This document shows positions 4,691-30,381 of a stretch of DNA of 64,000 nt, piece after piece (within the stretch, counting starts at the first letter, position 1; each line of letters starts with the position of its first letter). The notes beneath the pieces are model-generated. The model saw only the letters and a program-made list of their open reading frames with translations. It had not been told where the DNA came from and did not search any database. The translations under genes and the position numbers were made by a program. Origin of the DNA: Acetobacterium malicum subsp. dehalogenans DSM 11527 (lineage in GTDB: Bacteria > Bacillota > Clostridia > Eubacteriales > Eubacteriaceae); the NCBI RefSeq assembly GCF_000472665.1, contig NZ_AXAC01000016.1:1-64000 (forward strand), in the 5' to 3' direction.

Positions 4691-4774
4691 GAGGAACCTC
4701 CATAACCAATCGATAAGTTGAAAAACAAAAGCAATACCAACAATGACTTGGGGGTCAAACCCTTGTCAAAATAA

Positions 4775-4801
4775 ATTAACAAGTGGTCGGTATGGTAGTT
4801 T
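4775..4801 (+). repeat. Decayed right end of the hairpin repeat
   Basis: ATTAACAAGTGGTCGGTATG followed by GTAGTTT matches the right end of the 98-bp element and its flank (ATTAACAATTGGTCGGTACG, GTAGTTT) with two mismatches. The preceding TTGTCAAAA resembles the left flank of copies 1 and 2 (CTGTCAAAAA), so this may be an element that lost its middle. It lies in the 226-bp region between the two divergent two-component systems. No left arm is present. Confidence 0.6.
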
Positions 4802-4916
4802 TCAATTATTTTAAAATAATATCATAGTTTCCTTGTTTTATATAGCTTTAAGATTTCAGATCTATAATTAGACGTTAGCTTATAATCAAAATTCAAAATA
4901 TGGAAGGAGTCGCTTT

Positions 4917-5585
4917 ATGCGTATACTATTTGTAGAAGACGAAAAGAAAATAACCGATGCACTCCAGGAATTATGTAAAATACAAAACATCGATTGTGAC
5001 ATTGCCAACGATGGGGAGGAAGGTCTGTTATTTGCACTAAACCCTATTTACGATGTCATTGTTTTAGATATTATGCTGCCGATCAAAAGCGGGATCGAAA
5101 TTCTGCAGCAGATCCGCGACCAGGGCATTAATACCCCGGTGCTGATGCTAACCGCAAAAGGGACCATTGATGATAAGGTCAAAGGCCTGGATTTGGGCGC
5201 CGATGACTATTTGATCAAGCCATTTTCAGCCAAAGAACTGTTTGCCCGGATTCGGGCCCTGGGCCGCCGCCCGGATCATGGGATCAAGGGCGAAACAATC
5301 GTCTTTGAAGACGTCAGCTTCAATACCAAAAAAAATATCCTGCAAACCGAAAACAAGGAATTCAAACTGTCTGTTAAAGAAGCGAAGATTCTGGAAATGC
5401 TGTTAAAACGGCCCAATCAGGTTTTCACCCGCGAACAGATTCTGGATCGGGTGTGGGGGTTTGATAAAGAAGTCAATGAGAATAATATTGAGATCTATGT
5501 TCATAACCTCCGTAAAAAAATTGTTGATACGCAGGTTAAAATTGATACCATCCGAGGGGTAGGATATACGCTTGGGAAAAAATAG
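4917..5585 (+). CDS. OmpR/PhoB-family response regulator (second system)
   Basis: DNA-binding response regulator of 222 residues. The receiver has E7-D8-E9, the phosphorylated D51 in VLDIMLPIKSG, LMLTAKG, and K in DDYLIKPFSAKELFARIRAL. The C-terminal winged helix contains LSVKEAKILEMLL and the recognition segment NENNIEIYVHNLRKKI, ending DTIRGVGYTLG. ATG 4917 follows GGAAGGAGT at good spacing. The kinase gene follows after 18 bp. It is divergent from the first system and not a close copy of it. Two TATAAT boxes lie upstream (4863, 4881), but neither has a convincing -35 box. Confidence 0.93.
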   Translation: MRILFVEDEKKITDALQELCKIQNIDCDIANDGEEGLLFALNPIYDVIVLDIMLPIKSGIEILQQIRDQGINTPVLMLTAKGTIDDKVKGLDLGADDYLIKPFSAKELFARIRALGRRPDHGIKGETIVFEDVSFNTKKNILQTENKEFKLSVKEAKILEMLLKRPNQVFTREQILDRVWGFDKEVNENNIEIYVHNLRKKIVDTQVKIDTIRGVGYTLGKK

Positions 5586-23518: not shown

Positions 23519-24511
23519 ATGATGAAAATTTTAGTATGTGGCGGCGCCGGGTATATTGGATCACATGTGGTCAGGGTGCTGGTGGAGCGGGGCTATGAGG
23601 TGGTGGTGCTGGATAACTTCTCTACTGGACACCCGGGAGCGGTACCTGACGAGGCAGTGATTGTAGAAGGTGATATCCGGGATCAGGATTTTCTCGGCCA
23701 GGTTTTTGAGAACCACCAGATTGACTGTGTCATGCATTTTTGTGCCAATTCCCTGGTGGGAGAGTCGATGGAGCAACCGATCAAATATTACCATAACAAT
23801 GTTTATGGCACCCTTTGTCTGCTGGAAACAATGGTGGCACATGGGGTTAAACGTTTTGTTTTCTCGTCCACCGCAGCTGTATACGGGGAACCGGAGGAAA
23901 GTCCGATAACGGAAGACAGTAGCAAAAATCCCACCAATACCTATGGTGAGACAAAACTGGCGGTCGAAAAAATGCTGCCGTGGATGGATCAGGCCTATGG
24001 TTTAAAATCGATGACCTTCCGTTATTTTAATGCCGCGGGGGCCCATCCCAGCGGAGAAATCGGCGAAGATCACAATCCCGAAACCCATTTGATCCCGTTG
24101 ATTTTAAAAACCGCCCTGGGTCAGCGCGATAAAATCAGTATTTTCGGCGAAGACTATCCTACTCCTGACGGCAGTTGCATCCGGGATTATATTCATGTCA
24201 TGGATATTGCCTCGGCCCATATTTTAGGGATGGAAAAACTACTGGCCGGGGCCGAAAGCGATGTATATAATTTGGGCGACGGCAAAGGTTTTTCTGTCAA
24301 AGAAGTCATTGCCAAAACAAAAGTGCTGACCGAAAAAGTCTTTGCTGTAGAAGTCACCGCCCGCAGAGTCGGAGATCCGGCTGAACTGATTGCTTCTTCT
24401 CAAAAAGCCCAGCAGAAATTGGGCTGGACTCCAGTCTATTCAGATTTAGGTGAGATCATAAAAACAGCCTGGAAGTGGCATCAAAACCACCCCCAAGGCT
24501 ATGGCGAATAA
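23519..24511 (+). CDS. galE: UDP-glucose 4-epimerase
   Basis: NAD-dependent short-chain dehydrogenase of 330 residues that interconverts UDP-glucose and UDP-galactose. The NAD-binding motif GGAGYIGSH is at about 8-16. VLDNFSTGHPGAVP, FSSTAAVYGEPE (catalytic Ser/Thr region) and the YxxxK pair in TYGETKLAVEK follow, with RYFNAAGAHPSGEIGEDH and CIRDYIHVMD later. Two ATGs (23519 and 23522) lie behind AGAGGAAC and either could be used. It stands alone between the ppdK terminator and the convergent ArsR gene. It likely provides sugar nucleotides for cell-surface glycans. Confidence 0.95.
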   Translation: MMKILVCGGAGYIGSHVVRVLVERGYEVVVLDNFSTGHPGAVPDEAVIVEGDIRDQDFLGQVFENHQIDCVMHFCANSLVGESMEQPIKYYHNNVYGTLCLLETMVAHGVKRFVFSSTAAVYGEPEESPITEDSSKNPTNTYGETKLAVEKMLPWMDQAYGLKSMTFRYFNAAGAHPSGEIGEDHNPETHLIPLILKTALGQRDKISIFGEDYPTPDGSCIRDYIHVMDIASAHILGMEKLLAGAESDVYNLGDGKGFSVKEVIAKTKVLTEKVFAVEVTARRVGDPAELIASSQKAQQKLGWTPVYSDLGEIIKTAWKWHQNHPQGYGE

Positions 24512-24540
24512 AATATTGTTAAGCATGTAGAATAGTCAAT

Positions 24541-24572
24541 AGATTAATAATTGATCGCGATAATTAGTTTCA
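24541..24572 (+). repeat. Possible strongly decayed right end of the hairpin repeat
   Basis: AGATTAATAATTGATCGCGA followed by TAATTAGTTT loosely resembles the right end AGATTAACAATTGGTCGGTA plus flank GGTAGTTT. About two thirds of bases agree and no left arm is present, so chance similarity is quite possible. Confidence 0.2.
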
Positions 24573-24596
24573 GAGCGGTTAAAGATAAAAAATAAG

Positions 24597-24893
24597 TTAG
24601 AATTCCAGGGTGCTGAAATACTCGGCTGCCGTTAGATCCATGGCAGCGAGCAGTTTTTCAATGCCCTTTAATTTTACTGAATAGTGCATTTCCACACCGA
24701 TTTTGCGGTTTTCGAGAATCCCGGCTTCCCGAAGTATTTTCAGGTGTTGGGACAGGTTGGCCTGGCTGTAGTCAAATAACTGATTCAGGACGCATACACA
24801 CTGGGGTTCAATTAAAAGAAATTTTACGATTTGTAAGCGAACCGGATGTCCCAACGCTTTGAAGATTTTTACTGAAACATCATCAGCATTCAT
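24597..24893 (-). CDS. ArsR/SmtB-family transcriptional regulator
   Basis: Winged-helix repressor of 98 residues. The core reads KALGHPVRLQIVKFL, with the metal- or thiol-sensing type motif CVCVLNQLF, then the recognition helix YSQANLSQHLKILREAGI. ATG 24893 is used because AGAGG lies 6 nt ahead; the longer frame upstream runs through the rhodanese sequence. It lies 16 bp behind the rhodanese module in the same direction and so probably regulates the CoA-disulfide reductase/rhodanese operon. The CxC pair could sense persulfides, as in SqrR/BigR-type relatives, or thiophilic metals. Which one is inference. Confidence 0.85.
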   Translation of the reverse strand: MNADDVSVKIFKALGHPVRLQIVKFLLIEPQCVCVLNQLFDYSQANLSQHLKILREAGILENRKIGVEMHYSVKLKGIEKLLAAMDLTAAEYFSTLEF

Positions 24894-24909
24894 AATTGCC
24901 TCTTTTCTG

Positions 24910-25176
24910 TTAATCTTCTTTGGTGGCATCATAAAACTGAAAGCCCCCGGAGAGATTAAATACGTTTTTAAAGTCATGGTTAAGTAAAATGTTCTGGGTT
25001 GCATTACCGGTGACGCCCTTATTGCAATAGGTAATCACTGGTTGGGTCTGATCGAGTAGCGCCAGTTTGTTGCGCAGATCCTGATGGGGAATGTTTTGCG
25101 CTTCCGGCAGATGACCGGCAGCGTATTGTTCAGTTATCCGGGTATCAATAATTTGATAAGTTTCCCCATTATTCAG
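24910..25176 (-). CDS. Rhodanese domain in the -1 frame of the CoA-disulfide reductase gene
   Basis: Translating the minus strand from CTG at 25176 gives 88 codons of a complete rhodanese-like fold ending in TAA at 24910. Visible parts are YQIIDTRITEQYAAGHLPEA, which begins as rhodanese domains do, the active-site loop YCNKGVTGNA with its persulfide-carrying Cys, and FNLSGGFQFY near the end. No in-frame ATG, GTG or TTG lies ahead of the active-site strand. The preceding gene ends exactly where this frame begins, so the domain is best explained as the C-terminal part of a CoA-disulfide reductase-rhodanese fusion. Expression would need a -1 frameshift, transcriptional slippage, or a base missing from the assembly. 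Confidence 0.7.
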   Translation of the reverse strand: MNNGETYQIIDTRITEQYAAGHLPEAQNIPHQDLRNKLALLDQTQPVITYCNKGVTGNATQNILLNHDFKNVFNLSGGFQFYDATKED

Positions 25177-26549
25177 TTTTTTTTTAAGTCCTCGGGAGTG
25201 ATCAGTTTTCGCCCTTTGTTCAGGGCGTTGTCCAGGATCATCCCGGTATAGTGAACCGGATCCTTGGTCGTTGAAAATGGTGGGGCATAAGCCAAATCCA
25301 GATTAAAGATTTCAGCCACGGTGGCGCCATAGGTAATCAGGGTGACAAAGACATCCAGTCGCTTGTCAACTCCTTCATAGCCGATGATCTGAACCCCCAG
25401 GAGTTTTTCGGTGGCCCGGTCGGCAATGGCTTTGATCAGCATTTCTTGCCCGCCATAATAGCCCGGCTTATCGGGTTTGATATTATGAGCAATCTCGACA
25501 TCATAACCTTGGCTGCGGGCTTCCGATTCCGATAAACCGGTACTACCGATGCTGATATCAAAGACCTTAAAGATACCGGTACTCAGATTGCCCGGGTAAA
25601 GCACATCGCCCCCGGTAATATTATCACCACAGATGCGACCGGTTTTATTGGCAGTAGAGCCCAGCGGCCGGTAATGGGGTTTTTTAGTGACCGTCGACCA
25701 GGTCTCAATGCAGTCGCCACAGGCATAAATATCGGTATCGATGGTCATCATCCGCTCATCAACCCGAATGGCTCCGGTAACTCCCAGCAGTAAGCCAGCT
25801 TCCCGGGCCAGGGTTACATTGGGTTTTACACCGGTGGCCACAATGATCATTTCGCCCGGGATCAGCGTACCATTTTCCAGAACGACACCCTGGCTGGTGG
25901 CTTCAACGACATTGGCGTTTTTTAGAATGGGTATTTCTTTTTTGCTCAACAGTTTTTCAAGATATAAAGACATATCTTCGTCAAGGTTGGGGGTCAGTTT
26001 ACCAGCCCGTTCAACCAGCGTTACCTTAATGCCACATTCGATCAGATTTTCCATCACTTCAAAGCCAATAAAGCCGGTTCCGACAACCACGGCGGTTTTA
26101 GGATGCTGACTGTTCATAAAGGCTTTGATTTTTACGGCATTTTGAACATTTCTAAGAAAAAAGACATTATCTAAATCAATTCCCTTTATTGGTGGAACAA
26201 AAGCTTGGGCACCAGTACTGAGAATCAGTTTGTCATAGGGATCTTCAAAAACGGCTCCAGATTGTAGATTTTTAACCACGACCGTTTTACCCGGAGTATT
26301 AATCTTTAAGACCTCATGGCGGATACGCACGTCAATATTGTATTTGGATTTAAAAAATTCAGGCGTTCGGGGGGTCAAGGCCATGATCGATGGGACTTTT
26401 CCGCCAATAAAATAAGGAAGCCCGCACCCGGAATAAGAAATATCCTGATCTTTTTCATAGATAATAATTTCGGCCGAGTCATCATTTCGTCGGGCTTTGG
26501 CTGCCGCCGAGGTTCCTCCGGCTACTGCTCCTATGACTATAATTTTCAT
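25173..26549 (-). CDS. CoA-disulfide reductase / NADH-dependent flavin disulfide oxidoreductase
   Basis: FAD- and NAD(P)H-binding enzyme of 458 residues. The FAD motif is VIGAVAGGTSAAAKARR, the single redox Cys is C42 in DISYSGCGLPYF, the NAD motif is VVGTGFIGFE, and the second FAD motif is IYACGDCIE. It reduces CoA disulfide, CoA persulfide or polysulfide in known relatives. Fusions with a C-terminal rhodanese domain (about 550 residues) are well known, and the rhodanese frame follows here directly in the -1 frame. The 0-frame product ends LKKN at a TGA after A AAA AAC. The start ATG 26549 follows AGGAG on the minus strand. A candidate promoter is TTGCTT (26658-26653), 17 bp, TATAAT (26635-26630). 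Confidence 0.88.
   Translation of the reverse strand: MKIIVIGAVAGGTSAAAKARRNDDSAEIIIYEKDQDISYSGCGLPYFIGGKVPSIMALTPRTPEFFKSKYNIDVRIRHEVLKINTPGKTVVVKNLQSGAVFEDPYDKLILSTGAQAFVPPIKGIDLDNVFFLRNVQNAVKIKAFMNSQHPKTAVVVGTGFIGFEVMENLIECGIKVTLVERAGKLTPNLDEDMSLYLEKLLSKKEIPILKNANVVEATSQGVVLENGTLIPGEMIIVATGVKPNVTLAREAGLLLGVTGAIRVDERMMTIDTDIYACGDCIETWSTVTKKPHYRPLGSTANKTGRICGDNITGGDVLYPGNLSTGIFKVFDISIGSTGLSESEARSQGYDVEIAHNIKPDKPGYYGGQEMLIKAIADRATEKLLGVQIIGYEGVDKRLDVFVTLITYGATVAEIFNLDLAYAPPFSTTKDPVHYTGMILDNALNKGRKLITPEDLKKN
25176..25182 (-). other. Candidate -1 slippery heptamer A AAA AAC
   Basis: On the minus strand the frame reads TTA AAA AAA AAC TGA, with nine A in a row. Its last part is the classical -1 slippery heptamer A AAA AAC, immediately followed by the 0-frame stop. 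A single slip back places the ribosome on CTG AAT AAT GGG, the first codons of the rhodanese frame. The same A9 run could also cause RNA-polymerase slippage or a sequencing error. Confidence 0.5.
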
Positions 26550-26901
26550 GGTTTTCTCCTTTATTTTAAATCAGACTGTCGACAGCAGGCAGAAAGATAA
26601 AGCGCGTGCCTGAAAATAACGTTAACTACATTATAATCAATCAATGATTCAAAAGCAATGAAGATTTAGGGAATCGGGTTGCGAATCGCAGTAAGAAAAA
26701 TCGGCTCAGGGGTAATTTATGGCTTTGTCGATGGCAGTGAAAATTTACCCCATGAAATCAGTTTCAATGAATATAAAAAGTGATAAAATAGTGAGGCTGA
26801 GAAAACTAGGTAATAGTAGCCGCTTTGTGTTTCAATTTAAAAAAAAATTGGTATAATAAAAAGAGCAGCAAAACTTTGAAAAGAACAGATGAGGAGAAAA
26901 A
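26550..26901. promoter_or_regulatory. Divergent promoter region between the CoA-disulfide reductase and smsC
   Basis: No gene is seen in this 352-bp gap. On the minus strand TTGCTT (26653-26658) and TATAAT (26630-26635) are 17 bp apart and face the reductase gene. On the plus strand a TATAAT (26852-26857) with an upstream TTTCAA (26830-26835) faces smsC. A hairpin with arms GGGGTAATTT (26709) and AAATTTACCCC (ending 26751) lies between them and may separate the two transcripts or bind a regulator. Confidence 0.5.
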
Positions 26902-28782: not shown

Positions 28783-30381
28783 ATGAATAAAGACATGGAC
28801 ATCAATACCCTTCAAGCCAAAAAAAAACGAAACCAAAGCAGTCTCAAAATGCGGGCGTGGTCTTATAATTATTTAATGAAACCATCGACTCTGGGGGTGC
28901 TTGTTTTGTTTGGGCTGCTTTTAGTTGTTTTGTTTATACCACCGGTCATCGGAATGGGTGACGATGGCAGCACCGCCGCCATTATTTCGGGCAGTAATCT
29001 TTATAATCTCGGGGAACTGAGTCCCAAAGAAGCGCTGGCTTTTTTTCAAAAAGACTGGGGTATTATGGAATATTTCAACGATACCGGTAATGCTCAGATC
29101 ACTGCCCAAACGCCTTTTCTTAATGCCGCAAGAAATCTGGATCGGGCCTATACCTGGGATGGGCTGTTTGATATGCGGTTTTACGGTGCTGTCATTGCGT
29201 TTTTTTATCTGATTGCGATGTACTTTTTATTTGAAACAGTTACCTATGGCAAGCGTGCCACGTGGACTTATATCATTGTTGGTCTGGGGGTGATTATTTT
29301 CGGAGATACGGCCTATACCGCCTGGGTCAATTCGTTTTACCCCCAGGCCCTCAGTTTTTTTCTGGTGACCATTCTGGGGTCATCGCTTATTCTAATGGGG
29401 CAGGAAAAGCTGAATGATTATCTCCTGATTGGCTGCTTTTTCTTAAGTGCGCTATTGCTTTGCCTCTTAAACCAGCAATATGCCCTGCTTGGTCTTTTTT
29501 TGGGAATTCTGGGGATCAATCTCAAATACGTGGATGAAAAAAAACACTTTCAACGAATTTGTGTTATTTGTGGCAGTCTGCTGTTACTATCTTCACTGGC
29601 GGCATTTTTTATCATGCCCAATGAATTGTCAAAGCTAAGTACTTATCATAGTATGACTCGGGGGGTATTGATGACTGCCGACAACCCGGAGCAAGCCCTG
29701 GAAGAATTTTCAATCAATCCCCAGTACGCCGTTTTAACCGGAACCTCCTATTATCAGGCGATTTCGCCGGAAACCATGGACAGTCCGGAGATGGCGGCGA
29801 CTTTTTTCAGCAAGGTAAATCCCACCGGGGTGGCGATTTATTATCTGGCCAATCCCGGTCAATTATATGAAATGCTCAATCGCTCGGTGGACAGCAGCTT
29901 TAATATCCGACCAGCCTGGCTTGGTAATTACGAAATAACCCAGGGTTATCCGCCGGGAGCTCAAACCAGCTTTTTTACCCTATGGAGTTATCTCAAAGCC
30001 AATTACTTACCAGGAAATTTTGGCTTTATCATCATCTGGACAGGGGTGCTTATTGGGGTTTACGTCCGCTTTTTCAGAAAAGGGATCATCGAAAAAAACG
30101 AACGCAATACCCTGCGTTTTGTGGGGCTGATGACCTGGCTGTTTATCGGGCTCTGGGAATTGTATGTGGCGATTATCACTTCCGGGGATACCGATACCCT
30201 GGGCCATTTATTTATTTTTTCGCTGACTTTTGATCTGATATCATTTGTTATTCTGGGGAAATTCATCCATTGGCTTGAGAAACAATTGCGAAAGGTTGAT
30301 TGGGAGGCTCGCAAACAGGCATTTTTGCAGCGGAACAAGGATAAGCAAAAGAATCGGGAACAGCGAGGTTATCGACTATGA
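28783..30381 (+). CDS. Polytopic membrane protein of the exopolysaccharide locus
   Basis: Large membrane protein of 532 residues with roughly 10-12 hydrophobic segments beginning at about 35-55. A sizeable extracytoplasmic loop lies at about 280-385 and the tail is highly basic (about 505-530). I cannot assign an enzyme family; the layout is reminiscent of GT-C-type glycosyltransferases or glycan polymerases. Its stop overlaps the ATG of the DUF2334 gene by 4 bp (ATGA). It is therefore translationally coupled to the putative synthase operon and probably helps make or modify the polymer. The start ATG 28783 has AAGGGG upstream. Confidence 0.7.
   Translation: MNKDMDINTLQAKKKRNQSSLKMRAWSYNYLMKPSTLGVLVLFGLLLVVLFIPPVIGMGDDGSTAAIISGSNLYNLGELSPKEALAFFQKDWGIMEYFNDTGNAQITAQTPFLNAARNLDRAYTWDGLFDMRFYGAVIAFFYLIAMYFLFETVTYGKRATWTYIIVGLGVIIFGDTAYTAWVNSFYPQALSFFLVTILGSSLILMGQEKLNDYLLIGCFFLSALLLCLLNQQYALLGLFLGILGINLKYVDEKKHFQRICVICGSLLLLSSLAAFFIMPNELSKLSTYHSMTRGVLMTADNPEQALEEFSINPQYAVLTGTSYYQAISPETMDSPEMAATFFSKVNPTGVAIYYLANPGQLYEMLNRSVDSSFNIRPAWLGNYEITQGYPPGAQTSFFTLWSYLKANYLPGNFGFIIIWTGVLIGVYVRFFRKGIIEKNERNTLRFVGLMTWLFIGLWELYVAIITSGDTDTLGHLFIFSLTFDLISFVILGKFIHWLEKQLRKVDWEARKQAFLQRNKDKQKNREQRGYRL

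Follow-up and report, generated by a model that had tools for sequence, protein, structure and literature searches.

The reductase-rhodanese fusion gene of Acetobacterium probably carries a conserved slippage-based recoding site, which is of a known kind, in an enzyme and a genus for which we did not find such a site in print. In the window, a stretch of 64,000 nt from Acetobacterium malicum subsp. dehalogenans DSM 11527 (positions 1 to 64,000 of contig NZ_AXAC01000016.1), the reductase and the rhodanese part of this gene lie in two reading frames, and their sequence makes it likely that both are joined by recoding at a tract of adenines, giving the reductase alone and a fusion of about 546 aa. 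An earlier note on the same DNA had tentatively assigned these two products to one site and to a possible -1 ribosomal frameshift. Recoding at a single site is retained here as likely, but the ribosomal mode is not favoured.

The reductase frame spans positions 25173-26549 of the minus strand (458 aa) and ends with TTA AAA AAA AAC TGA, and the reading of this end, of the heptamer A AAA AAC and of their coordinates in the earlier note was accurate. The nine As (A9 tract, 25177-25185, minus strand), which are the proposed slippage site, provide this heptamer together with the next base (25176-25182, minus strand) in the phase of the reductase frame, and the TGA stop (25173-25175, minus strand) follows immediately 3' of AAC. 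The rhodanese domain is found in the -1 frame (24910-25176, minus strand), with 88 codons from 25176 down to 24913, a TAA at 24910-24912 and the active-site loop CNKGVTG. Its identity, already named in the earlier note, was confirmed by a match of the 88 aa to Pfam PF00581 (Rhodanese, E 2.5e-17), as was the lack of a usual start codon, the -1 frame being open for 40 codons 5' of the tract without ATG, GTG or TTG. The only near-start codons of this frame are an ATT that lies 93 nt 5' of the tract and, on its 3' side, a CTG abutting the tract and then ATT and ATA codons. The 15-base junction site is present as a single copy in the 4.05 Mb genome, and the A9 word has 105 matches there (both strands, overlapping words in longer runs counted). 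Independent translation of the rhodanese was considered as the main route and rejected: none of the eight genomes with split frames described below has an ATG, GTG or TTG between the upstream stop and the tract, the only one of these three codons within 60 nt 3' of the tract in these genomes is a TTG 18 nt in (G017), and the CTG overlapping the stop is absent from G007 and G017.

From its domains, we propose that the gene encodes a CoA-persulfide-reductase-type protein in which reductase and rhodanese are fused. The short product is a CoA-disulfide-reductase-like FAD/NAD(P)H reductase (Pfam PF07992 and PF02852) with a CGLPY motif; the best NCBIfam model, TIGR03385, scored 453.2 bits and is below its cut-off of 578.8, so that the name CoA-disulfide reductase is given by likeness only. 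The order Pyr_redox_2, Pyr_redox_dim and Rhodanese, with a Cys in both active sites, is distributed over two frames in the window and contained in one frame in an in-frame relative (P0001 of G013). P0001 aligned end to end, over 2-541 and 2-543, with the solved rhodanese-containing CoA-disulfide reductase 3icr and with the E. faecalis CoA-persulfide reductase 8a56, and the cysteines of both active-site motifs align between P0001 and these two proteins. Of the two cysteines, the rhodanese one was found persulfidated in cells of E. faecalis (excerpt of PMC9405070). The frame breaks where the rhodanese domain begins (451-538 by Pfam match in the fused relative), and the short product would therefore retain the whole reductase and dimerisation domain; in this it is like the reductase-only CoA-disulfide reductases obtained in the search that gave 3icr and 8a56, e.g. 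1yqz (438 aa).

Directly downstream, and outside the recoding site, a gene for an ArsR/SmtB-family regulator was identified by ORF, NCBIfam and Pfam (24597-24893, minus strand), which, judging from the spacing only, may belong to the same operon as the reductase. The start of an ArsR-family gene directly follows in 11/13 genomes, the exceptions being G015 and G016. G011 and G012 have neither a rhodanese nor an ArsR gene immediately 3' of the reductase, and similar sequence is present directly downstream in these two genomes and in G015 and G016, which have the rhodanese and no following ArsR gene.

For the comparison within the genus, 19 Acetobacterium genomes were searched, with one genome per species and the window's own genome (G000) included. 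An orthologue of at least 69% identity was detected in 15 of them, the remaining G003, G004, G008 and G014 having none (best match at most 41% identity). The rhodanese follows in 13 of the 15; the copies of G011 and G012 stop at 445 aa, lack it and were excluded from every rhodanese count. Such a comparison had been suggested in the earlier note, and it returned the same out-of-frame site in eight of the 13 genomes, seven with A9 (G000, G005, G007, G015, G016, G017 and G018) and one with A11 (G009). The other five are in frame and all keep nine or ten As, with CTT A9 C in G013 and G002, TTG A9 C in G010, and CTA with nine As after it (A10 altogether) in G001 and G006. The shift needed is one extra A in seven genomes and of the opposite sense in G009, this opposite case being a single genome, and five genomes need none. 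Two of the eight split genomes are single-contig assemblies, the A11 genome G009 among them. On the reductase tree, the frame state changes at least four times, indicating more than one move of the site into or out of the frame, and near species differ in tract and frame (A11 in G009, A9 in G018). The rhodanese is full length in seven of the eight split copies, and its catalytic loop CNKG[VI]TG is present in all eight; in G005 the last ~20 residues are gone (the frame ends NHN and then a stop), from which the domain there may be decaying. The fused protein gave no match in 21 genomes of the family's other genera at E up to 1e-150.

The tract varies from A9 to A11, with at least nine As in 13/13 genomes, in frame or not, and nine As are the longest stretch that is invariant across all 13. 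The next-longest invariant runs reach at most 8 nt in the 1359 nt of the reductase and are all shorter than 6 nt over the first 201 nt of the rhodanese. Of the 22 Lys columns that are invariant, 18 mix AAA and AAG and four are AAA throughout, while AAA accounts for 72% of the Lys codons of 50 long ORFs in the window. As the test of the tract was post hoc and the genomes are related, no probability is attached to this conservation. Only two of the five A9 runs in the window lie within ORFs, which cover ~85% of it, but these counts are too few to judge avoidance. Another A9 is located at 28819-28827 (plus strand) inside the ORF 28783-30381, near its start. We also considered whether stops in the two unused frames after the tract point to selection for a short product with a clean end, and rejected this: one of the frames stops within 4 nt in 13/13 genomes, but the same holds for 20/60 relatives without the tract, many of these being the clostridial ones most like the query.

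A search for relatives led to 74 loci, 10 of them from Acetobacterium and 64 from outside the genus. Reductase and rhodanese share one frame in 60 of the 64 outside loci, with no A-run longer than 6 around the junction; the other four are affected by a contig edge (L068, L091 and L092) or a scaffold gap (L064). In L064, from Desulfosporosinus UBA5188, the gap of Ns past the junction (4700-5060) is probably the explanation for an odd two-frame match. As 60 of the 64 outside relatives are fused and free of the tract, the one-frame fusion is probably ancestral and the A-tract a feature of Acetobacterium. A plain in-frame fusion without a conserved slippery site, which the earlier note had expected to count against its reading, is thus what is found outside the genus; inside it, the in-frame relatives retain the A-run. 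Paralogues from the same genomes (L017-L019 and L021-L031) are single open frames at 14/14 loci, which speaks against a general assembly problem, and a domain scan of eight of these 14 detected a rhodanese in each. Two of them, L017 and L019 (from G014 and G004), have a 9-base A or T run at coding nt 1955 of an 826-aa paralogue, near the TusA/DrsE_2 boundary, and L018 has only a 6-base run at the matching position. L017 has the domains reductase-rhodanese-TusA-DrsE and is in one frame; its 9-base run and that of L019 are a possible second slippage site.

The rhodanese is under purifying selection on the split lineages and behaves as translated sequence, which agrees with the view of the earlier note that this frame is still translated. 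Nine of the 28 pairs of split genomes were run and gave pairwise omega values of 0.06-0.31, with omega = 1 rejected in 9/9 (2dlnL 8.5-59.0); one pair of in-frame genomes (G001-G006) was saturated. A branch model resulted in omega 0.159 for the out-of-frame branches versus 0.083 elsewhere, sizes that are rough, as we implemented the codon models ourselves and kept the tree fixed, some of its branches being long and close to saturation. On the split branches omega = 1 was rejected (2dlnL 70.4), and the gain over a single omega was slight (2dlnL 4.07). All rows in the branch models were trimmed to 84 codons and G005 to 67, the out-of-frame foreground includes one inner branch of unsettled placement (length 0.004), and a branch labelled out-of-frame may in part have evolved in frame. 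When the truncated G005 copy was left out, omega on the split branches was 0.142 and omega = 1 was again rejected (2dlnL 62.3); two sister pairs with both members split gave 0.148 (2dlnL 45.5). Values for single tips were 0.013 for G000 (2dlnL 20.4), 0.068 for G017 (8.1), 0.271 for G005 (5.2) and 0.295 for G007 (3.9), and the reductase gave 0.083 on a nearly identical set of branches. That 8/13 genomes share the break at this tract, together with purifying selection on the rhodanese there, argues for a junction that is more than chance, and a sequencing slip or a fresh pseudogene is unlikely.

Slippage of RNA polymerase on the A-run is, in our view, rather probably the explanation for the split, a reading that draws in part on one genome, G009. 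It is preferred over a -1 ribosomal shift because the shift that G009 requires is in the other direction, no RNA structure 3' of the tract is conserved, and slippage is known for runs of nine As. The linker of the fusion would have gained the A-run in the genus Acetobacterium, and RNA polymerase slipping on this run would generate transcripts with 9, 10, 11 or still more As. Those that keep the templated A9 would be translated to the 458-aa reductase ending LKKN, and those with one additional A to the 546-aa reductase-rhodanese fusion (LKKKLNNG...). Species that are in frame at the DNA level would produce mostly the fusion and some of the short form, out-of-frame species the reverse, with the short product acting as CoA-disulfide reductase, the long one as CoA-persulfide reductase, and both being used. 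The occurrence of recoding, its transcriptional stage, the product ratio and the use of both products are what we infer here. A needed direction that varies among orthologues is a criterion for transcriptional realignment in the excerpted text of Antonov 2013 (PMC3711429), where a 9-A cassette is also given with 40% frameshifting, and runs of nine As or nine Ts slip in bacteria (excerpts of PMC5009743 and PMC1088944). Single-base insertions during transcription predominate in A/T runs and rise with run length, and deletions inside homopolymers are rare in transcription of E. coli (both from part of PMC5574713); because of this rarity, the A11 genome G009 would need two extra As or the rarer event. 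According to a portion of Baranov 2005, 9-A runs may cause no slippage in those AT-rich bacteria in which such runs are not avoided. A more far-reaching form is a tentative suggestion, to which we give clearly less credence than to slippage itself: genus-wide slippage might make the DNA frame nearly irrelevant, so that both products are always formed, the tract drifts between A9, A10 and A11, the frame of a species sets the ratio, and stand-alone CoA-disulfide reductase and CoA-persulfide reductase are both in use.

In seven genomes the A9 tract is at the same time an in-phase site for -1 ribosomal frameshifting, and the site by itself cannot separate the mechanisms there. Programmed or simple frameshifting of this type, in which the tRNAs on A AAA AAC slip by one base in the 5' direction ahead of the stop and continue in the frame of the rhodanese, would fit the heptamer being in phase in 7/8 split genomes, followed by TGA or TAA in six and by GAC TAA in G017, and A_AAA_AAC is listed among A-rich heptamers in the excerpt of PMC3711429. 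We nevertheless regard it as unlikely, since such a shift would be useless for G009 and all 13 genomes keep the A-run. A stimulatory RNA structure downstream, which the earlier note had proposed to look for, is suggested in the window by the 80 nt after the site, which fold better than shuffles (z -2.34), with a weak hairpin ~10 nt and a stronger one ~54 nt past the tract. This fold is not shared by five other split genomes (z +0.75, +1.32, -1.59, -0.95 and +1.47; six of the eight, that of the window included, were folded), and the 48 nt after the tract gave z values of -0.92 to +1.28 in 13/13 genomes, nothing beyond chance. A weak A/U-rich hairpin motif, TATCAR-N4-YTGATA, is present in 5/8 split and 1/5 in-frame genomes, but the near hairpin is absent from G009, G018 and G017, and the consensus fold of the eight split genomes reached only -5.8 kcal/mol, its covariation term being unfavourable. 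No Shine-Dalgarno-like or other upstream pairing element before the tract is common to the genomes, and no Rfam match was obtained in 24500-26900 at E up to 1. A downstream stimulatory structure is not universal among known -1 frameshift sites.

Switching at the DNA level, in which replication slippage would toggle the rhodanese between on and off states within a population and selection would act while it is in frame, would likewise hold omega low and would agree with near species differing in tract length and frame and with the at least four frame changes. It appears distinctly unlikely to us, as most genomes have only nine As, which is a short run, the function of the enzyme looks metabolic and not surface-exposed, and MutS-like genes (PF00488, open frames of 885-911 aa) are present in 16/19 genomes including that of the window; of the three exceptions, which are fragmentary assemblies, G008 has a 408-aa piece, and G005 and G006 gave no hit. 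A decaying domain, left as a relic after independent losses of the frame with only the reductase being made, is a reading to which the relaxation on the split branches, the truncation in G005, the copies of G011 and G012 and at least one other intact reductase-rhodanese paralogue in the window's own genome (L023) would lend something. We give it very little weight against the rejection of omega = 1 on the split branches and in the sister pairs with both members split, and against the length and catalytic loop retained by the split copies. An error of sequencing or assembly in the A-run is most improbable of all: the assemblies are mostly drafts and the site is a homopolymer, but the identical break is found in eight separate assemblies, and the paralogue loci are all open.

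If RNA-polymerase slippage is true for this site, a metabolic enzyme of an acetogen genus would join the cellular genes whose two products are set by slippage of the polymerase, and the 13 species, with their several states of the tract, would form a natural series for testing how slippage, frame and product ratio evolve. It would also suggest that the persulfide-handling domain goes unnoticed in automatic annotation, which would show the reductase alone or a disrupted gene. Among openly licensed PubMed Central papers we found none in which this enzyme or the genus is linked to slippage or to frameshifting, and none of the best 15 of 6,449 loose literature matches contains Acetobacterium woodii. 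The terms 'rhodanese' and 'disulfide' are absent from the main text of PMC3711429 and from the searched part of PMC5009743.

The domain order is shared with the CoADR-RHD/CoA-persulfide reductases 3icr and 8a56, which are single-chain proteins, whereas here the frame breaks where the rhodanese begins. In dnaX of E. coli, an A-rich heptamer leads to a short and a long product, as proposed here. There the frameshift is of the ribosomal mode (excerpt of PMC1088944); unlike in E. coli, the Acetobacterium genomes share no stimulatory hairpin or upstream pairing element, and the shifted product would be the longer one. In dnaX of Thermus thermophilus, as here, a coding A9, nearby stops in the other frames and two length variants are found (parts of PMC1088944 and PMC5009743). 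Its long form is in frame in the DNA, in contrast to Acetobacterium with 8/13 genomes out of frame and five in frame, and the present case is another enzyme and comes from sequence alone. By analogy, the closest parallel to the Acetobacterium site is tssM, with a poly-A before the stop in tssM1 of Citrobacter rodentium and tssM3 of Yersinia pseudotuberculosis; in one of the two species the C-terminal domain is regained through additional As in the mRNA, and slippage shortens the product in the other (excerpt of PMC4256274). It differs in its A11 in C. rodentium and in being a secretion-system protein, whereas here both arrangements are read, from the DNA only, within one orthologous group of one genus.
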